DNA of 35,786 bases from Fibrobacter sp. UWH4 (GTDB taxonomy: Bacteria > Fibrobacterota > Fibrobacteria > Fibrobacterales > Fibrobacteraceae): contig NZ_FRAY01000015.1 of NCBI RefSeq assembly GCF_900142475.1, forward strand, positions 1-35,786, in the 5' to 3' direction. This document shows positions 6,730 through 13,898 of the stretch, piece after piece. The position numbers and the translations under genes are program-made. The first letter of the stretch is position 1, and each line of letters opens with the position of its first letter. Under the pieces are notes generated by a model. The model worked only from the letters and a program-made list of their open reading frames with translations, made no database searches and was not told where the DNA came from.

Positions 6730-6802
6730 GTTCTGCAAAAACAGACCTTTCCGAAAAAAGAAATTCTCGAACTTTAATTACTCTTAAAAATCACATTGCA
6801 AA

Positions 6803-6857: not shown

Positions 6858-6878
6858 CACGACAGTATTTGTCGCAGT
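6858..6878 (+). promoter_or_regulatory. CGACA-N5-TGTCG palindromic element, copy A
   Basis: The 21-bp stretch contains CGACA (6860-6864) and TGTCG (6870-6874) separated by five bases. It is identical at 19 of 21 positions to the minus-strand stretch at 15469-15489 in front of the hydrolase-SLOG operon. In both copies an A(A/C)CTATTTT run follows, ten bases or so after TGTCG. It could be an operator, for instance of the WYL regulator at 15570-16598, or a shared promoter box. Confidence 0.5.
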
Positions 6879-6935
6879 CATTAACTATTTTTAGACAATA
6901 ACGGATATTGAAAAAAATCCAAACGGGGGACCAAT

Positions 6936-7607
6936 ATGGCAAGGGATCTTTCAGGTACACCGAAGTGGGACATTCTCCGGAATTTCTACCGCGACTTCGA
7001 TAACGGCCGCAAACGCGGCTGTGTCGAGAAGTGGAAAAAAGAAATGCCCAAAGGCGGACTCGAACGGGATCACTTTGAAATCAGAATCCATACCGAATTC
7101 CTGAAGGACCGCCACGAAAAACTGAACAAGGAATTCCGCTGGACCTACGCGAACAAGAAAAAGCTCATCGTACTCGACCAGCGTTTCAGGGAACTTCACC
7201 GGAACATCGCCCGCACCTTCGAGGCGACCAAAAGGGACATCGCTGCACTCACCGCGCAAAATCACAAGTGGTACAGGGAATACGAACTCGAATCGGAAAT
7301 CTGCCCCGCAAACGACTGGGACATTCCCGGTGAACACGAATACATCAGCGATTTGCTTTTCTGGTACGCAAACTGGGGTTCCATCAACATCTGCTCTAGT
7401 ACGAACGAATACAGCCCCGAACGCCACAAGGTCTACCTCGTTCCCGCCTGGAAACAAATGCTGCTCGTCGACAAGTTCGTCAAGGATGATGTCACCTGGG
7501 AACTTGACTCGCTCCTCTACGACAGCGAATCGAGCCTCTACACCTTCCACGACATTGTCCGCATGAAACCGGAACAATTCGAAGTGAGATATACATTGAG
7601 TTTTTAA
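6936..7607 (+). CDS. Hypothetical protein, first gene of an unknown pair
   Basis: The 223-residue product is not recognised. It has no signal peptide or membrane segment, so it is probably cytoplasmic. The N-terminal 110 residues are highly charged and probably helical (KWKKEMPKGG, KNKKLIVLDQRFRELHRN-like pattern); the second half is rich in Trp and Tyr (FWYANWGSINIC, VPAWKQMLLVDKF) and probably beta-containing. The start has a strong GGGGGA Shine-Dalgarno. The gene at 7624 follows after 16 bases, indicating one operon. The palindromic element at 6858-6878 lies 57 bases upstream. GC-rich third codon positions match the host rather than the AT-rich mcrBC genes beyond. Location in an accessory island suggests, but does not show, a defence-related role. 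Confidence 0.6.
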   Translation: MARDLSGTPKWDILRNFYRDFDNGRKRGCVEKWKKEMPKGGLERDHFEIRIHTEFLKDRHEKLNKEFRWTYANKKKLIVLDQRFRELHRNIARTFEATKRDIAALTAQNHKWYREYELESEICPANDWDIPGEHEYISDLLFWYANWGSINICSSTNEYSPERHKVYLVPAWKQMLLVDKFVKDDVTWELDSLLYDSESSLYTFHDIVRMKPEQFEVRYTLSF

Positions 7608-7623
7608 ACAAAAGTGAGGTACT

Positions 7624-8133
7624 ATGAGAAGACGATACATTTATCAGCTGGCGGCAACGATACTGCCGAATGGACGGGGCTATGATACCGTTGACCATGA
7701 CCTGGGAATTTTCACGTCGCTACGCACCGCCAAAAAAGTGCTACGTGATTTCGTCAAGGGCGGAGATTTCTATTGCCCAACCTATAGTTTTTCCATCATG
7801 TACCTGCCCGTCGACAACGATCTGGATTATGAATCCGATAGGCAAATCAACGTCTATTCGCCCGATGGCAAATTGCAACTCTCGGAATTCAACATGATGT
7901 CCTGTAACGGGGCGTGGAGCAAGAGCCTGAATATAGACCTTCGCGCCGTCATCGACATCGGCCCCGGCAAAAAGCCTTATTTCACGCTATACAACCATTG
8001 GAAACGAGGACTCGCGACCAAAAGCGCACGCATCTCCTTTCTGGAACCCAAATACGAACTGGGCTCCTCGTACAACAAATCCGTTTGGTTTCTGGACAAT
8101 AACGAGAAAAAGATGCTCATGAAGTTCCTGTGA
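7624..8133 (+). CDS. Hypothetical protein, second gene of the pair, probably truncated by an in-frame TGA
   Basis: The 169-residue product is not recognised. It opens MRRRYIYQLAATILPNGRGYDT and alternates short beta-type stretches (IMYLPVDNDL, INVYSPDGKLQLSEF) with charged segments. No signal peptide is seen. GTGAGG precedes the ATG, and the gene is 16 bases after the 6936 gene. The reading frame stops at TGA (8131-8133) after LMKFL, but the same frame continues without a stop for 49 more codons with host-like codon use to TAG at 8281. The full-length ancestor was therefore probably about 219 residues. A CGA-to-TGA change would explain this; a genuine end at 8133 cannot be excluded. Confidence 0.55.
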   Translation: MRRRYIYQLAATILPNGRGYDTVDHDLGIFTSLRTAKKVLRDFVKGGDFYCPTYSFSIMYLPVDNDLDYESDRQINVYSPDGKLQLSEFNMMSCNGAWSKSLNIDLRAVIDIGPGKKPYFTLYNHWKRGLATKSARISFLEPKYELGSSYNKSVWFLDNNEKKMLMKFL

Positions 8134-8283
8134 ACAAAATGCAGGAGCATATTTAGCGACAAGTGCACGAATAACTGGATGAGCGTCATCGGCGCGTTCA
8201 ACAACGAAGTCAAAGGCGATGATGACAGCCGCATCCTGCCCTACGATTTACCCATCCCGAATTACAACAAACTAGAACCGTAG
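8134..8283 (+). pseudogene. In-frame continuation of the 7624 gene beyond TGA
   Basis: Directly after the TGA the frame reads 49 codons, starting TKCRSIFSDKCTNN and ending LPYDLPIPNYNKLEP, then TAG. Codons such as GTC, ATC, GGC, GCG, TTC and AAC are host-like, unlike random intergenic DNA. The only internal ATG (8176) has no Shine-Dalgarno, so a separate gene is unlikely. It is best read as the C-terminus of the preceding protein, separated by a nonsense change or reached by read-through. Confidence 0.5.
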
Positions 8284-8299
8284 TGAAAAATTTCCTTAT

Positions 8300-8404
8300 G
8301 GGCGTTCCCCTGGCGGGTCGGGCCATACTCGCACGTCGCTAACGGCGCGCTCACCGAGCCTTGCTTACGCAAGTCTCGTCCCTTCGGGTAACTGTCCCTA
8401 ACGC
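8300..8404. repeat. GC-rich foldable intergenic element
   Basis: A 105-base GC-rich block sits in otherwise AT-rich spacer. It begins GGGCGTTCCCC and ends GTCCCTAACGC; GCGTT near the 5' end is complementary to AACGC at the 3' end, which would close a multi-stem structure. Inside are CTTGC-TTAC-GCAAG and CCC-TTC-GGG hairpins. I recall elements with similar ends (GGGCGTTCCC ... CCCTAACGC) as dispersed intergenic repeats in some rumen and gut bacteria, but cannot verify that here. It lies just after the interrupted gene and before mcrB, at an edge of the AT-rich operon. Confidence 0.45.
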
Positions 8405-8522
8405 AAAATGTGCATCTATTTCTTGAAAAAAAAGAGGTAATTAAGTTTTTTTAAGCCAAAACGGATTTTTTCTAAAAAAGGATATATATTTATATTGTTC
8501 TTGAAAAACAAAGGGAGAGCAC

Positions 8523-10805
8523 ATGAATGTCAATTTAGAAGAAAAAATAATAGCCTTCCTAAACGGTTATCTAGAAGAGGCAAAAAAGAAATTTTCCTTT
8601 CTCAAAGGTGATAAGATTGCTGGTAAAACACGGGGATATTTCTTTAATTCCAACAAAAATGGATTATTAACAGGCACATATGTCGGTGTGAGTGTTGACT
8701 ATGAGAGCAACAAGTTAAATGTCTTTCTGCGTTTTTGGGAAGAAGAGGAAAAGGAAAAAAATTACGAAAATATAGAAAAAAAACTCAATATCCTAGAAGG
8801 GCATTCAAGGGAATTTCAAAATCTTTTGGGGGTGGATGTTTGGTATCACCACTATGAAAAACAAGTGCGCGGTTTCATGAGTGACAATGACGACGGAATC
8901 CGTGGTTTCTCCGTAACTTTTCCTGCTTATAAAAAATTAGGCAAAGAAATAAAAAATGATCTAGACACGGCACTTTCTGCCATCAAATTGATGAAGGGCT
9001 ATATAGAGGAACCTTTGACAGATGATTCTGACGCCAACGACAAAACCCTTCTAGAAAAGATTCAAATAGCGATGGATGCACAAAGTGAGGGGCTTCTTGC
9101 GCGTATCAAATTAGGGAATGGATTTTTGCAATATAAACCTGTGAACGCCAATTCGAATGATTGGCGTGATTCGGCATGTCATTATGAATTCCGAGAAGAT
9201 GGTAAAGGAAATATGCAAATTTGTTTTCACTGCGAGAGCAAATTTTCGAATCAAATTGAGTTTAAAAAATTAGTTGAAAAAGAGGAGTCTTTTAAGTCAT
9301 CTTTTTTTGGAAACAAAACAACTATTGACTACAAAAGAATCCCCCTCTCAAGTGGAAAAATTGTAGATGAAGCCGTTGACGGAATGCTTGAATTTGAAAA
9401 AAAATACGGATCCAAAATCTTAAAATTAATTCAAAAGAGTAAAGGCGTGATTTCTTCGGGAATTAGTAACAATGGAGAGAAAGAAATGAGTGTGTTTGAA
9501 GCGAATAAAGAAAAAATTGAATTAAATACTATTCTTTATGGGCCTCCGGGAACGGGCAAAACCTTCAACACCATGGCTTATGCCGTTGCTATTTGCGAAG
9601 ATAAAGATGTTGAAGAAATAAAAAAAGAAATGAAGGAAAATTATGATTCCGTAAAACAACGATATGATGCTCTTAAGGATGAAGGACGTATCGAGTTTGT
9701 GACCTTCCATCAATCCTATGGTTATGAGGATTTTATTGAGGGAATTAAACCAGACCTTGATGATTCTACAGGAACGTTGAAATACAAGTTGGAAACAGGA
9801 CGTTTCAAGGCTTTTTGTGATAAAATATCCGGTAATTTTGATGACGCATGGGGTGTATTGTGCGATAAACTAGATGATGAAGATAAGGAATACCTTGAAA
9901 TACCTTATATTAGCGATAAAAACAAAACCTTTGCTATTGAATGGAATGTATCTCATAACGGATTAAAGGCAAAGGATGCTCATCGATTCTTTAATAAGAA
10001 ACAACTGCAAAATATATACAGGAAAAAACCTGGTGTGAAAAAAGGTGGTCATGACAACTACAGAAAGGCCATTGTAGAGTATATGAAAAAAGAATGCGGA
10101 TTGAAAGAATTCAATGGCGACGAAAGTAATGACTTGTCAAGTAATGCGAGAGTATTTATTATAGATGAAATCAACCGTGGCAATATCAGCAAAATTTTTG
10201 GGGAGCTGATAACGCTTATCGAACCTTCTAAACGTTTGGGAGAAAAGGAAAACTTGAAAGTCACGCTTCCTTGTTCTGGAGACGAATTCGGAGTTCCAAA
10301 TAATGTTTATATTCTAGGAACAATGAATACAGCGGATCGTTCCATAGCAATGATGGATACTGCTCTACGTCGTAGGTTTAATTTTGTTGAAATGATGCCG
10401 GATACGGGTGTTCTGAGAAATGATATAGGGGATGATATTGGTATTGATGTTTGCAAAATGTTAGAAACCATAAACAAACGTATTGAATATCTCTATGATA
10501 GAGAACATACTATAGGGCATGCGTTTTTTTTAAATGTAAAAACATTTGATGATTTAAAATTAGTATTTAAAAATAAAGTCATTCCATTACTTCAAGAATA
10601 TTTCTATGACGATTACGAAAAGATTCGCCTTGTGTTAGGTGATAATGGGAAGGATGAAGTGCGTCAATTCATAACAAAGGTTCTCCCACAAGAAGATCTT
10701 TTCAAGAAGGGGGAAGATGACGAAGACCTCAATACAGAAAAATATATATATCAGATAAATCAAGATGCTTTTGATAACCCTGAAAGCTATAAAGATATTA
10801 TTTGA
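8523..10805 (+). CDS. mcrB: McrB-type AAA+ GTPase subunit of a modification-dependent restriction system
   Basis: The 760-residue product is the motor subunit of a McrBC system, which recognises modified DNA and translocates on it using GTP. The AAA+ module is clear: Walker A GPPGTGKT (340-347), the McrB-typical VTFHQSYGYEDF (393-404), Walker B FIIDEINRGN (545-554), sensor GTMNTADRS (599-607) and the arginine-finger run LRRRF shortly after. Residues 1-320 form a long N-terminal region, expected to read the modified base. I do not recognise its fold; it seems to contain two domains (about 1-165 and 175-310). It is longer than the 459-residue E. coli McrB. The gene is strikingly AT-rich compared with its neighbours, a sign of transfer. 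GGGAG precedes the ATG. The stop overlaps the mcrC start. Confidence 0.93.
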   Translation: MNVNLEEKIIAFLNGYLEEAKKKFSFLKGDKIAGKTRGYFFNSNKNGLLTGTYVGVSVDYESNKLNVFLRFWEEEEKEKNYENIEKKLNILEGHSREFQNLLGVDVWYHHYEKQVRGFMSDNDDGIRGFSVTFPAYKKLGKEIKNDLDTALSAIKLMKGYIEEPLTDDSDANDKTLLEKIQIAMDAQSEGLLARIKLGNGFLQYKPVNANSNDWRDSACHYEFREDGKGNMQICFHCESKFSNQIEFKKLVEKEESFKSSFFGNKTTIDYKRIPLSSGKIVDEAVDGMLEFEKKYGSKILKLIQKSKGVISSGISNNGEKEMSVFEANKEKIELNTILYGPPGTGKTFNTMAYAVAICEDKDVEEIKKEMKENYDSVKQRYDALKDEGRIEFVTFHQSYGYEDFIEGIKPDLDDSTGTLKYKLETGRFKAFCDKISGNFDDAWGVLCDKLDDEDKEYLEIPYISDKNKTFAIEWNVSHNGLKAKDAHRFFNKKQLQNIYRKKPGVKKGGHDNYRKAIVEYMKKECGLKEFNGDESNDLSSNARVFIIDEINRGNISKIFGELITLIEPSKRLGEKENLKVTLPCSGDEFGVPNNVYILGTMNTADRSIAMMDTALRRRFNFVEMMPDTGVLRNDIGDDIGIDVCKMLETINKRIEYLYDREHTIGHAFFLNVKTFDDLKLVFKNKVIPLLQEYFYDDYEKIRLVLGDNGKDEVRQFITKVLPQEDLFKKGEDDEDLNTEKYIYQINQDAFDNPESYKDII

Positions 10806-12112
10806 TGAAAACTCTGATAAAAAAGGAGTTTGAAATCATTGAGCAGGGAAATGCTGAAAGACAAATCTCAAACAATCGATTTAAATTGCTTCGAGATTTT
10901 GTCTTAAAGGCTAGTGATGTTTCAAAAAAAGAATATGCTCCAGATTTTTTCAAACTCATAGTAAAAAACAGTAAAGAAGCCATCAAAGTTCAAAACTATG
11001 TTGGGGTTGTTGAATTGCCGGATGGTTTTCGTATAGAGATCTTACCTAAAATTGATCTATCGGATGATGACAAAGAATGCGATAAAACACGGAATATTTT
11101 CTTAAAAATGTTGCAATGTATGGATGAAAATCAGTTCAAGGTATCTGATTTTGCAAATTTAAACACATCCAAAATGCCGTTGTTCGAAATTTTCATTCAA
11201 ATGTTTTTGAATGATGTACAGAAGCTAACTCGCATGGGTTTAAAATCTGGTTATGTTCATATAGAGGAAAATTCTAAAACTTTTAAGGGTAAATTACTTG
11301 TTTCGCAGAATATACGAGAAAACCTTGTTCACCAAGAGCGTTTTTACGTAGAATATGATGAATTCCAATTAAATCGTCCAGAAAATAGACTGGTCAAATC
11401 AACTTTACTATATCTCAATAAAAAATCAAATAGTGATTCTAATCTTGCAGAAATTCGAAGGCAACTGATGTTCTTTGAACAGGTTGAAGCCTCAATCAAT
11501 TATGAAGCAGATTTCTCAAAAGTGGTAAAAACTCGAAATACGACCGAATATGAAAACTTAATGGCGTGGGCACGAGTTTTTCTTCAAAATAAAAGTTTCT
11601 CAACATTCTCTGGAAAAACTTCTGTAAGGTCAATTCTTTTTCCGATGGAAAAAGTCTTTGAAGCATACGTGGCGAAGATGTTGCGTAAAGCGGTCATCAA
11701 GGAGACGGAAGACGATTATTGGAGAGAATGGAATGTTCGTTCGCAATATGGTGCAAAATATTTATTTGAAGTTCCTTCAAATAAATTTCATATGCGCCCA
11801 GACATCGTAATGAAAAAGGATGATAAAATCAATATCATTTTAGATACAAAATGGAAGCGGCTAGTAAATGACTATAACTCAAATTATGGTATTTCTCAAC
11901 AAGATATGTATCAGATGTTTGCCTATGGTCATAAATATAATTGTCCAAATATCTGGCTTATTTATCCTAAAAATATAGATATGAAAGAGAATATTCAAAA
12001 ATTTGAAAGCGATTGCAATAGTTTGAAGATCTCGGTAAGCGTATACTGTTTGGATTTGGATAAAAAAGGGGCGTTTTCTTTACTTTTATCGCATTTGAAG
12101 GAAGAAAAATAA
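10805..12112 (+). CDS. mcrC: McrC-type nuclease subunit
   Basis: The 435-residue product is the endonuclease partner of McrB. The C-terminal PD-(D/E)XK core is visible: RPDIV (331-335, D333), then ILDTKWKR with D347-T-K349, then QQDMYQMFAYGHKY (365-378), all typical of McrC. The N-terminal part (VGVVELPDGFRIEILPKI, 66-83) matches the McrC domain that docks on McrB. The ATG at 10805 overlaps the mcrB TGA in TGATG, so translation is coupled. An in-frame TTG one codon earlier is less likely. The AT-rich codon use is the same as mcrB. The next gene starts five bases after the stop. Confidence 0.92.
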   Translation: MKTLIKKEFEIIEQGNAERQISNNRFKLLRDFVLKASDVSKKEYAPDFFKLIVKNSKEAIKVQNYVGVVELPDGFRIEILPKIDLSDDDKECDKTRNIFLKMLQCMDENQFKVSDFANLNTSKMPLFEIFIQMFLNDVQKLTRMGLKSGYVHIEENSKTFKGKLLVSQNIRENLVHQERFYVEYDEFQLNRPENRLVKSTLLYLNKKSNSDSNLAEIRRQLMFFEQVEASINYEADFSKVVKTRNTTEYENLMAWARVFLQNKSFSTFSGKTSVRSILFPMEKVFEAYVAKMLRKAVIKETEDDYWREWNVRSQYGAKYLFEVPSNKFHMRPDIVMKKDDKINIILDTKWKRLVNDYNSNYGISQQDMYQMFAYGHKYNCPNIWLIYPKNIDMKENIQKFESDCNSLKISVSVYCLDLDKKGAFSLLLSHLKEEK

Positions 12113-12932: not shown

Positions 12933-12974
12933 TTATAGGCGGATTTATAGACGGGTTTATAGTTCGGTTTATAG
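12933..12974. repeat. 12-bp tandem repeat, four TTATAG units, overlapping the rpn-like stop codon
   Basis: TTATAG occurs at 12933, 12945, 12957 and 12969, exactly 12 bp apart, with intervening G/C-containing hexamers of the type nnnGGn. On the minus strand each unit carries CTATAA, and the unit at 12969 supplies the TAA stop of the nuclease gene. The other three TAA triplets follow in the same frame. Confidence 0.8.
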
Positions 12975-13898
12975 TTCGCGAACGATATCTTCAGAAAGAT
13001 GCGTTATTCGAGCAACCTTTTCCACCGAATCACCTTCGGCAAGCATATCACGAGCAATTTCACGAGTTTTGTCAAGGACGCCTTCGGTAACCTTCGCGTT
13101 GACTAAGTCCGCGTAGTCCTCCAAAAAGGCCTCTCCCATAAGGTTATGGTCCCATTTTTCGTGATGCATTTTCTGGTATACCTCAAATTCTTCTTTAGAG
13201 AAGTTAGATACTTTTGAACTCTCTGTCAAGTGTTCGAACTTTTCTTCATCCAATTCAGCGGGCAACTCCTTCAACTTATCCAGAAAACGGAAGAAAAACA
13301 GCCACTTGCGGAGGCTTGATGCTCCTGCCTCAATGAAAAAGGGAACCTTTGAAAGTTCAATTGCAGTGAAGTTATAGGTATCAAGAAACTGTTCCCCCGT
13401 TTCCAAGTCAACAACCGTGGCGCGATGAACAATACGTTCATCTTCGAACATCGTATGTTGCGTAAATGCAATCACATAGGTTGGCTTGATTTTGTAATTC
13501 CAATTATTGCCAGGTTCAGCCTGATTTGCAACCATTTCGCTCGCATAGAACGCAAGGCGATTCAAAAGGTTTGTCATACGGCGAATCTGCACTTCGATTT
13601 CAATCAAGTTTCCCATATCGTCTTCACAGTGCAGGTCGAAAATCGCCGTGCGAGATTCCTTGCTTCCGCTCAAATTGTGCGCCACGTTGCGAGTCTTCAC
13701 ATTTACGATTGGCCGCTTGAGTTGCGGTTCGAGCAAGTCGTTCAGCAAATTGACAAGGTTCTGACGACTTACGGGTTTGTCAGGATTGAACGCCTTCTTA
13801 AAAGCCAAATCCACCAGCAGACTGGCATACGGACTTTTTTCACCTGGTTTGACAATGCATTCTGAAAGAGGTTTGCGTTTGACGTTATTCTTTTCCAT
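12969..13898 (-). CDS. Rpn family recombination-promoting nuclease (PD-(D/E)XK)
   Basis: The 309-residue product matches the Rpn/PDDEXK_2 family, proteins often labelled putative transposase that cut DNA and promote RecA-independent recombination. Residues 23-60 carry the family opening (YASLLVDLAFKKAF, NLVNLLNDLL). The nuclease core is AIFDLHCED (D88) followed by EIEVQI (E102-V-Q104), and LLNRLAFYASEM (111-122). The C-terminal helix-rich tail ends in ITHLSEDIVREL, a typical Rpn ending. The start at 13898 has only a weak AGGA. It is convergent with the mcrBC operon. There are no terminal inverted repeats, so this is not an insertion sequence. Its stop codon lies in a 12-bp tandem repeat. Confidence 0.85.
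   Translation of the reverse strand: MEKNNVKRKPLSECIVKPGEKSPYASLLVDLAFKKAFNPDKPVSRQNLVNLLNDLLEPQLKRPIVNVKTRNVAHNLSGSKESRTAIFDLHCEDDMGNLIEIEVQIRRMTNLLNRLAFYASEMVANQAEPGNNWNYKIKPTYVIAFTQHTMFEDERIVHRATVVDLETGEQFLDTYNFTAIELSKVPFFIEAGASSLRKWLFFFRFLDKLKELPAELDEEKFEHLTESSKVSNFSKEEFEVYQKMHHEKWDHNLMGEAFLEDYADLVNAKVTEGVLDKTREIARDMLAEGDSVEKVARITHLSEDIVREL

Follow-up and report, generated by a model that had tools for sequence, protein, structure and literature searches.

A Flavo-1-related dispersed element at the edge of an mcrBC locus in Fibrobacter sp. UWH4

Introduction

Insertions of the IS200/IS605 type, made by HUH (Y1) transposases, have a T-rich flank and lack a target duplication. Integron attC sites are defined by the polarity RYYYAAC...GTTRRRY, in which AAC precedes GTT. 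Both features bear on the element described here, which nevertheless finds its closest described counterpart in an orphan family, Flavo-1 (Rfam RF01705).

Flavo-1 was named as a candidate RNA in 2010 (PMC2864571). An RNA-seq study reports no real clue to its function (PMC9723704). Among the matches listed in keyword and topic searches of the literature, no title or abstract opening describes the element of this report.

That element lies in a stretch of 35,786 nt from Fibrobacter sp. UWH4 (NZ_FRAY01000015.1; genus Fibrobacter, family Fibrobacteraceae, phylum Fibrobacterota), which we call the window. It is related to the orphan family Flavo-1.

Results

A block with the boundaries of a dispersed family

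The element spans positions 8300 to 8404, a non-coding stretch of 105 nt that reads GGGCGTT...CCCTAACGC. The complementary ends GCGTT/AACGC reported in the first-pass annotation can be read directly in the window sequence. The same annotation had described the block as GC-rich within AT-rich surroundings, and this is accurate for the block itself (GC content 0.657) and for the 120 nt rightward (0.250), but not for the 300 nt leftward (0.463). As many as 1107 of the 35,682 stretches of 105 nt in the window have an equal or higher GC content. A 5-nt complement between the ends is present in 329 of 5098 such stretches sampled. Folding energies for the element as RNA correspond to z-scores of -1.18 (plus strand) and -0.25 (minus strand), and the minus strand folded as DNA gives -2.30. 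Taken on their own, base composition, end complementarity and folding energy would not single out positions 8300 to 8404.

Comparison with other copies indicates that the block is a real unit, since it begins and ends where the members of a dispersed family do and its pairs covary. We used two covariance models, R1 built from 36 copies from Bacteroidota only, and R2 built from 18 copies from the genus. R1 matches the window on the minus strand at exactly 8300 to 8404 (E 1.2e-6, or 1.3e-4 when the element's own genome is searched), and its ends are identical to those of the element. Because R1 was constructed without any copy from the genus, this homology is independent of the genus set. The earlier proposal of a bounded non-coding block holds. 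The R2 match to the same positions reaches 102.7 bits (E 1e-19), a score obtained with the window copy in the R2 training set.

Covariation supports a conserved frame and a variable interior

Three alignments were scored for covariation: A2, with the 36 Bacteroidota copies; A3, with the 18 genus copies including that of the window; and A4, with 101 distinct copies. The score for A2 is 0.316, compared with 0.100 for shuffled alignments and at most 0.105 for slid ones. For A3 the corresponding values are 0.155, 0.060 and at most 0.035, and for A4, which was fitted to R1 and therefore leans towards it, 0.353, 0.098 and at most 0.078. The evidence for compensatory changes in the element family is thus strong. 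Their absence had been named in advance as grounds for discarding the annotation, and they are abundant.

The fold was derived from column covariation together with the structure line of Rfam Flavo-1. RNAalifold applied to the first MAFFT alignment returned three pairs only and was rejected as a source of structure. In this model, P1 closes the folded minus strand and P2 comes next, with variable hairpins inside; a further hairpin, H1, branches off to the side where P2 meets P1. The parts are as follows.

8300..8404, minus strand: whole element; the folded strand is the minus strand, with its 5' end at 8404
8400..8404, minus strand: P1 5' arm, GCGTT, pairs with 8302-8306
8302..8306, minus strand: P1 3' arm, AACGC, pairs with 8400-8404
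8393..8398, minus strand: P2 5' arm, GGGACA; the A at 8395 is opposed to the G at 8323
8320..8325, minus strand: P2 3' arm, TGGCCC, pairs with 8393-8398
8380..8388, minus strand: interior hairpin a, CCC-GAA-GGG; paired in 18/18 copies, one compensatory pair
8355..8378, minus strand: interior hairpin b, outer stem CGAG...CTCG; 91.4% of cells paired, three pairs with double changes
8331..8350, minus strand: interior hairpin c, variable; 78.4% of cells paired, five pairs with double changes
8308..8317, minus strand: side hairpin H1, between P2 and P1; CCC/GGG invariant in 18 copies

P1 is paired in all 18 genus copies and in every lettered cell among the 101 copies of A4. It is nearly invariant, although one pair is UA in 98 copies and GC in two, which is a compensatory change. 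Others are found in L216, a copy from the same genome as the window (GCGGG/CCCGC), and in L390 (GCGTG/CACGC). P2 is laid out as GGG, an A.G mismatch and two further pairs; both inner pairs covary, with compensatory changes among the 18 genus copies of the kinds CG/UA and AU/GC/CG. H1 is highly variable in length and sequence in other copies; of the two pairs modelled in it, one shows double changes. In five loci (L156, L157, L160, L161 and L164), H1 holds about 50 nt of extra sequence containing TGTCATCCTGAGCG...GAAGGATCT, a motif common across bacteria.

The mismatch in P2 is purine-purine in 101 of 101 A4 copies (A.G in 96, G.A in three and A.A in two), and would be pyrimidine-pyrimidine if read on the plus strand. 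This suggests that folding takes place on the minus strand, whether as RNA or as single-stranded DNA. Wobble counts provide a weak test of the same point: G.T exceeds A.C by 18 to 5 in the 19 best pairs, whereas over all 26 modelled pairs the counts are 30 and 76, with 54 of the 76 A.C cells in one poorly paired position. In the interior typical of Bacteroidota, 86 of 101 copies have GNA/GNA as the loop joining P2 to P3. About 43 have such a loop between P3 and P4 as well, where the commonest alternative is GGC/ANA (27 copies). The window element has three hairpins in place of these 3x3 loops, P3 and P4.

The element is a relative of Flavo-1 outside its Rfam definition

A lenient scan identified many of the Bacteroidota copies as Flavo-1, on the strand opposite to the one that reads GGGCGTT...TAACGC. 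Of 16 Bacteroidota loci chosen from good R1 matches, 15 reach 60-70 bits, where the Flavo-1 cut-off is 42 bits. Altogether 16 of 20 sources pass this cut-off, namely these 15 and L389 (61.5 bits), a locus whose genome belongs to a different genus of the window's family and carries Bacteroidota-type copies. L390 falls just below it at 40.9 bits. Some Bacteroidota copies with the same ends also fall below it, including L113 (31.4 bits) and the second copy in L129 (29.3 bits). L338 is likewise under the cut-off or unmatched, and L153, L120, L097 and L152 have no Flavo-1 match in lenient scans.

An Rfam scan of the window at curated cut-offs returned no match. When compared with Flavo-1 directly, the window element gave no match at E<=5 or E<=10 and so stays short of 42 bits, and at E<=5 none of ten own-genome copies (that of the window and nine others) was matched. 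Among the candidates scored at E<=1e-3, R1 recovers just one copy from this genome, the window element. Because R1 finds this single copy only, it is the outer frame that connects the form seen in the genus with that of Bacteroidota. The window element is thus a relative of Flavo-1 that stands outside the membership defined by Rfam, with a common outer frame and a different interior.

Copies in the genome, the genus and other phyla

The large model searches scored 17-42 candidates per genome, so the counts they gave are lower bounds. In the genome of the window, R2 matches 11 places at E<=1e-3 and one more at E<=0.1; by eye, these 12 comprise ten full copies and two partial ones (L218 and L220). 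Matches by blastn, many of them partial, are present in 33 of 61 genomes of the genus (E<=0.1), and R2 matches in at least 73 of 80, including 40 of 40 high-quality ones. Copy numbers in the genus are modest, and some copies are common to the same place in several genomes. R1 matches at least 31 of 120 genomes of the phylum, which fall in five of 37 genera and all belong to the window's own family.

Outside the phylum, R1 matches (E<=1e-6) were found in at least 37 of 247 genomes sampled around that of Flavobacterium psychrophilum (G080, the genome of L101). All 11 genomes searched from the Bacteroidota and Spirochaetota loci have R1 matches at E<=1e-3, with between 8 and at least 150 per genome. 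A pattern scan of genome contigs returned at least 118 stretches, many of which appear to be chance hits within coding sequence, and reveals a clear family in Bacteroidota and in some Spirochaetota; 60 copies from outside the genus were kept by regular expression. The first-pass annotation had staked its reading on the existence of further copies, and these occur in the same genome, the genus and other phyla. Its mention of similar ends in dispersed elements of other anaerobes was only partly right, in that Bacteroidota, among them Flavobacterium, Algibacter and Aquimarina, had the largest numbers seen here. Its broader suggestion, a mobile non-coding element or a structured RNA, is strengthened by the copies and by the compensatory changes.

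Several individual copies were also recorded. A subclass of about 133-137 nt, for example L212 (G000:C10:23843-23977), recurs in many genomes of the genus, several times with the same left flank, and is probably an old fixed copy. One own-genome copy (L006) directly adjoins a 5S rRNA gene. A sheep-rumen Bacteroidales contig (L107) has a different palindrome, GCGTTAGGGGCTGTGG...CCACAGCCCCTAACGC, twice; the plus-strand occurrence ends at 1245 and the other at 6795 of the reverse complement.

Signs of dispersal and movement

Twenty copies from Aquimarina have a mean pairwise identity of 0.934 (range 0.761-1.0), and yet their 200-nt flanks match in only six of 760 pairs (E<=1e-5). All six matches involve the right side of four copies (L301, L308, L309 and L316) and apparently stem from another repeat of about 100 nt that lies there at differing distances and in differing orientations. 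By simple ORF calling, 45 of 47 copies from outside the genus lie outside ORFs of at least 90 aa. For these 47 (the rest of the 60 were short of flank or neighbor), the orientations of neighboring genes are ++ in 10, -- in 16, -+ in 12 and +- in 9, with no clear preference.

In 100 copies picked by regular expression, the preceding triplet is TTT in 56 and TTA in nine, with T at 73-83% in each position, and the base that follows is a purine in every case. One of the 60 regex-kept copies has a T after it; its flank is short and it was left out of the 100-copy set. These 100 copies, drawn from Bacteroidota and other groups outside the genus, show no excess of target duplication for lengths of 2 to 10 nt.

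Differences in presence were also observed. Of nine own-genome sites prepared, eight were compared and that of L216 was followed up. This copy is present in two genomes, its own and G020, and its flanks are joined without an element in six others (G062, G067, G079, G003, G010 and G035), in which R2 has no match there. These empty sites are diverged and the join is not base-perfect, and three further genomes (G078, G049 and G018) carry other insertions between the flanks. One of four Aquimarina sites, L319, was compared by the orthologue of its left gene alone; in the 19 genomes examined out of 51 others, none of the 19 loci has an R1 match around this gene. One Aquimarina copy had no match in plasmid and phage collections, and the element pattern matches 74 stretches of viral contigs.

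The family looks mobile because of its copy number, the occurrence of similar copies in mostly unrelated flanks, the lack of an orientation preference, the differences in presence, and the TTW on one side without target duplication. We regard the evidence that the family is dispersed as good, and the evidence that it moves as fair.

The right edge of the element coincides with a variable junction

The surroundings of the element in the window are arranged as follows.

6936..8282, plus strand: left neighbor block, with ORFs 6936-7607 and 7624-8133; homology runs to 8282
8404..8405, no strand: recurrent junction; in seven loci that differ rightward, left-block homology stops between 8396 and 8410
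8523..12112, plus strand: right neighbor, mcrB-like (AAA_5) and mcrC (PF10117)

The left block and the element (about 6859-8404) are conserved in related genomes and the DNA rightward varies. The genes mcrBC lie to the right of the element in the window and in two other genomes (G049 and G031). In seven element-bearing loci with a different right side, left homology ends at 8396, 8405, 8406, 8406, 8406, 8408 and 8410, all within 8 nt of the right edge of the element. The loci of G001 and G067 read alike, leaving six distinct loci among the seven. In the locus with the end at 8396 (G059), the element's own end is lost and homology to mcrBC resumes at 9383. In G005 the left block is present without an element, and homology ends at 8282. 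The border that had been proposed at the edge of the mcrBC operon is therefore recovered as a left junction, at which homology ends in seven loci that differ rightward.

Blocks further right mostly keep their order across related loci, and for this reason the idea that the left gene and the element travel as a cassette was dropped. The locus is a place in the chromosome at which DNA is exchangeable, and its left edge falls at the element. The two short ORFs of the left block had no match in a Pfam search and may be one broken gene. A gene for a PDDEXK_2 family transposase (12969-13898) is located close to where the variable region ends on the right. In L155, L157, L158, L159 and L162, a further stretch that ends in a CCTAACGCA-like sequence, and that is a hairpin in most of these loci, lies just to the right of the element, giving direct repeats of that end.

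Discussion

We consider it likely that positions 8300 to 8404 hold a non-autonomous, dispersed, Flavo-1-related element of a kind that ranges from about 85 to 190 nt, whose copies spread by way of a folded single strand through an enzyme encoded elsewhere, and that its right edge at this locus is the left junction. Transposition would proceed through a folded single-stranded intermediate. By one route, the DNA would be cut beside TTW; by another, a minus-strand RNA would be reverse-transcribed into T-rich DNA, which the flanks would fit too. Since the moving enzyme would be encoded elsewhere, the element itself would need no lasting transcript. More tentatively, Flavo-1, rather than being an sRNA gene, might form the core of a superfamily of transposable elements folded as single strands, found in Bacteroidota, Spirochaetota and the window's phylum, which insert at TTW without duplication, combine a recognised frame with an interchangeable interior, and have an edge at which defence cargo such as mcrBC is exchanged.

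Strongly conserved structure could also reflect an RNA function, so that a structured RNA gene or cis-regulatory RNA, with each copy transcribed on the minus strand and paralogues arising by duplication, has to be considered. The purine-purine mismatch in P2 (A.G 96, G.A 3 and A.A 2 of 101) marks the minus strand as such a gene would, the excess of G.T over A.C in the 19 best pairs (18 to 5) agrees in a weak test, and 86 of 101 copies have GNA/GNA in the first 3x3 loop, as in Rfam Flavo-1. However, folded single-stranded DNA predicts an equal strand bias, the wobble counts over all 26 pairs run the other way (30 to 76), copies show no clear orientation relative to genes, and a genome can have 150 matches or more. 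In the F. psychrophilum transcriptome study, Flavo-1 hits are reported to lie sense or antisense to transcribed regions alike, many fall outside them, and some hits overlap with several 5' transcribed regions (PMC9723704). In our reading, this pattern suits scattered DNA more than it does a dedicated RNA gene, and gives no support for a dedicated transcript. Overall, we find the RNA gene explanation unlikely.

Mobility could also be explained by more familiar machinery. Movement of a REP/RAYT-type element by a Y1 (HUH) transposase is suggested by the TTW on one side, the lack of a target duplication and the folded strand, all of which resemble insertion of the IS200/IS605 type. Yet a Y1_Tnp search returned no match in five of 12 element-bearing genomes, the window's own included, neither R1 nor R2 matches any of 28 Y1 loci, and the size and ends are unlike those of REPs, so that we judge this explanation to be slightly less plausible still than an RNA gene. 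It is very improbable that the element is a classical MITE, with terminal inverted repeats and target duplications generated by a DDE transposase, given that the 100 copies have no target duplication, the flanks are asymmetric, and the inverted repeat is 5 bp long and, at one end, starts two bases inside the element; the short, dispersed, non-coding character and the complementary subterminal 5-mers are what speak for it. The TAACGC and GCGTT motifs, the exchange of DNA at the element edge and the second hairpin with a CCTAACGCA-like end in some related loci recall an integron attC-like recombination site marking a cassette array, but the polarity GTT...AAC is the reverse of attC and the copies are scattered, which makes this reading more improbable again. 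That the block is merely a chance structured GC-rich stretch, as its weak folding z-scores might suggest, is refuted by the copies in the genus and other phyla, the independent R1 match and the covariation in A4, and we give this almost no credence.

Returning to a dispersed element moved as a folded single strand, the findings suggest that Flavo-1-like repeats should be seen as small mobile elements and not as ordinary RNA genes. They also suggest that the folded interior can differ from phylum to phylum within a single conserved outer frame. Recurrent ends, copy numbers, differences in presence and a target preference turn the puzzle of Flavo-1 into a testable question, namely, whether the element moves and by which enzyme.

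How the element compares with known systems can be stated part by part. It resembles attC sites in its folded strand and its GCGTT/AACGC motifs, but it reads GCGTT...AACGC on both strands, a polarity opposite to the attC definition, and its copies are scattered. Like REPs, it is short, intergenic, folded and present in high copy number; it differs in its size of 85-190 nt, its ends and the lack of a Y1_Tnp match in the window's genome. With MITEs it has in common that they are short, non-autonomous, dispersed repeats with presence and absence at orthologous sites (L216 and, more weakly, L319), although it has neither a target duplication nor long terminal inverted repeats. Flavo-1 is filed by Rfam as an sRNA with a model of 76 positions that pairs neither P1 nor H1, and the window element has three hairpins where Flavo-1 has P3, flanked by 3x3 loops, and P4. 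The layout of these GNA/GNA loops in the Bacteroidota copies is that of Rfam Flavo-1, and P2 with its A.G mismatch (GGGACA/TGGCCC) is present in the window element as well.
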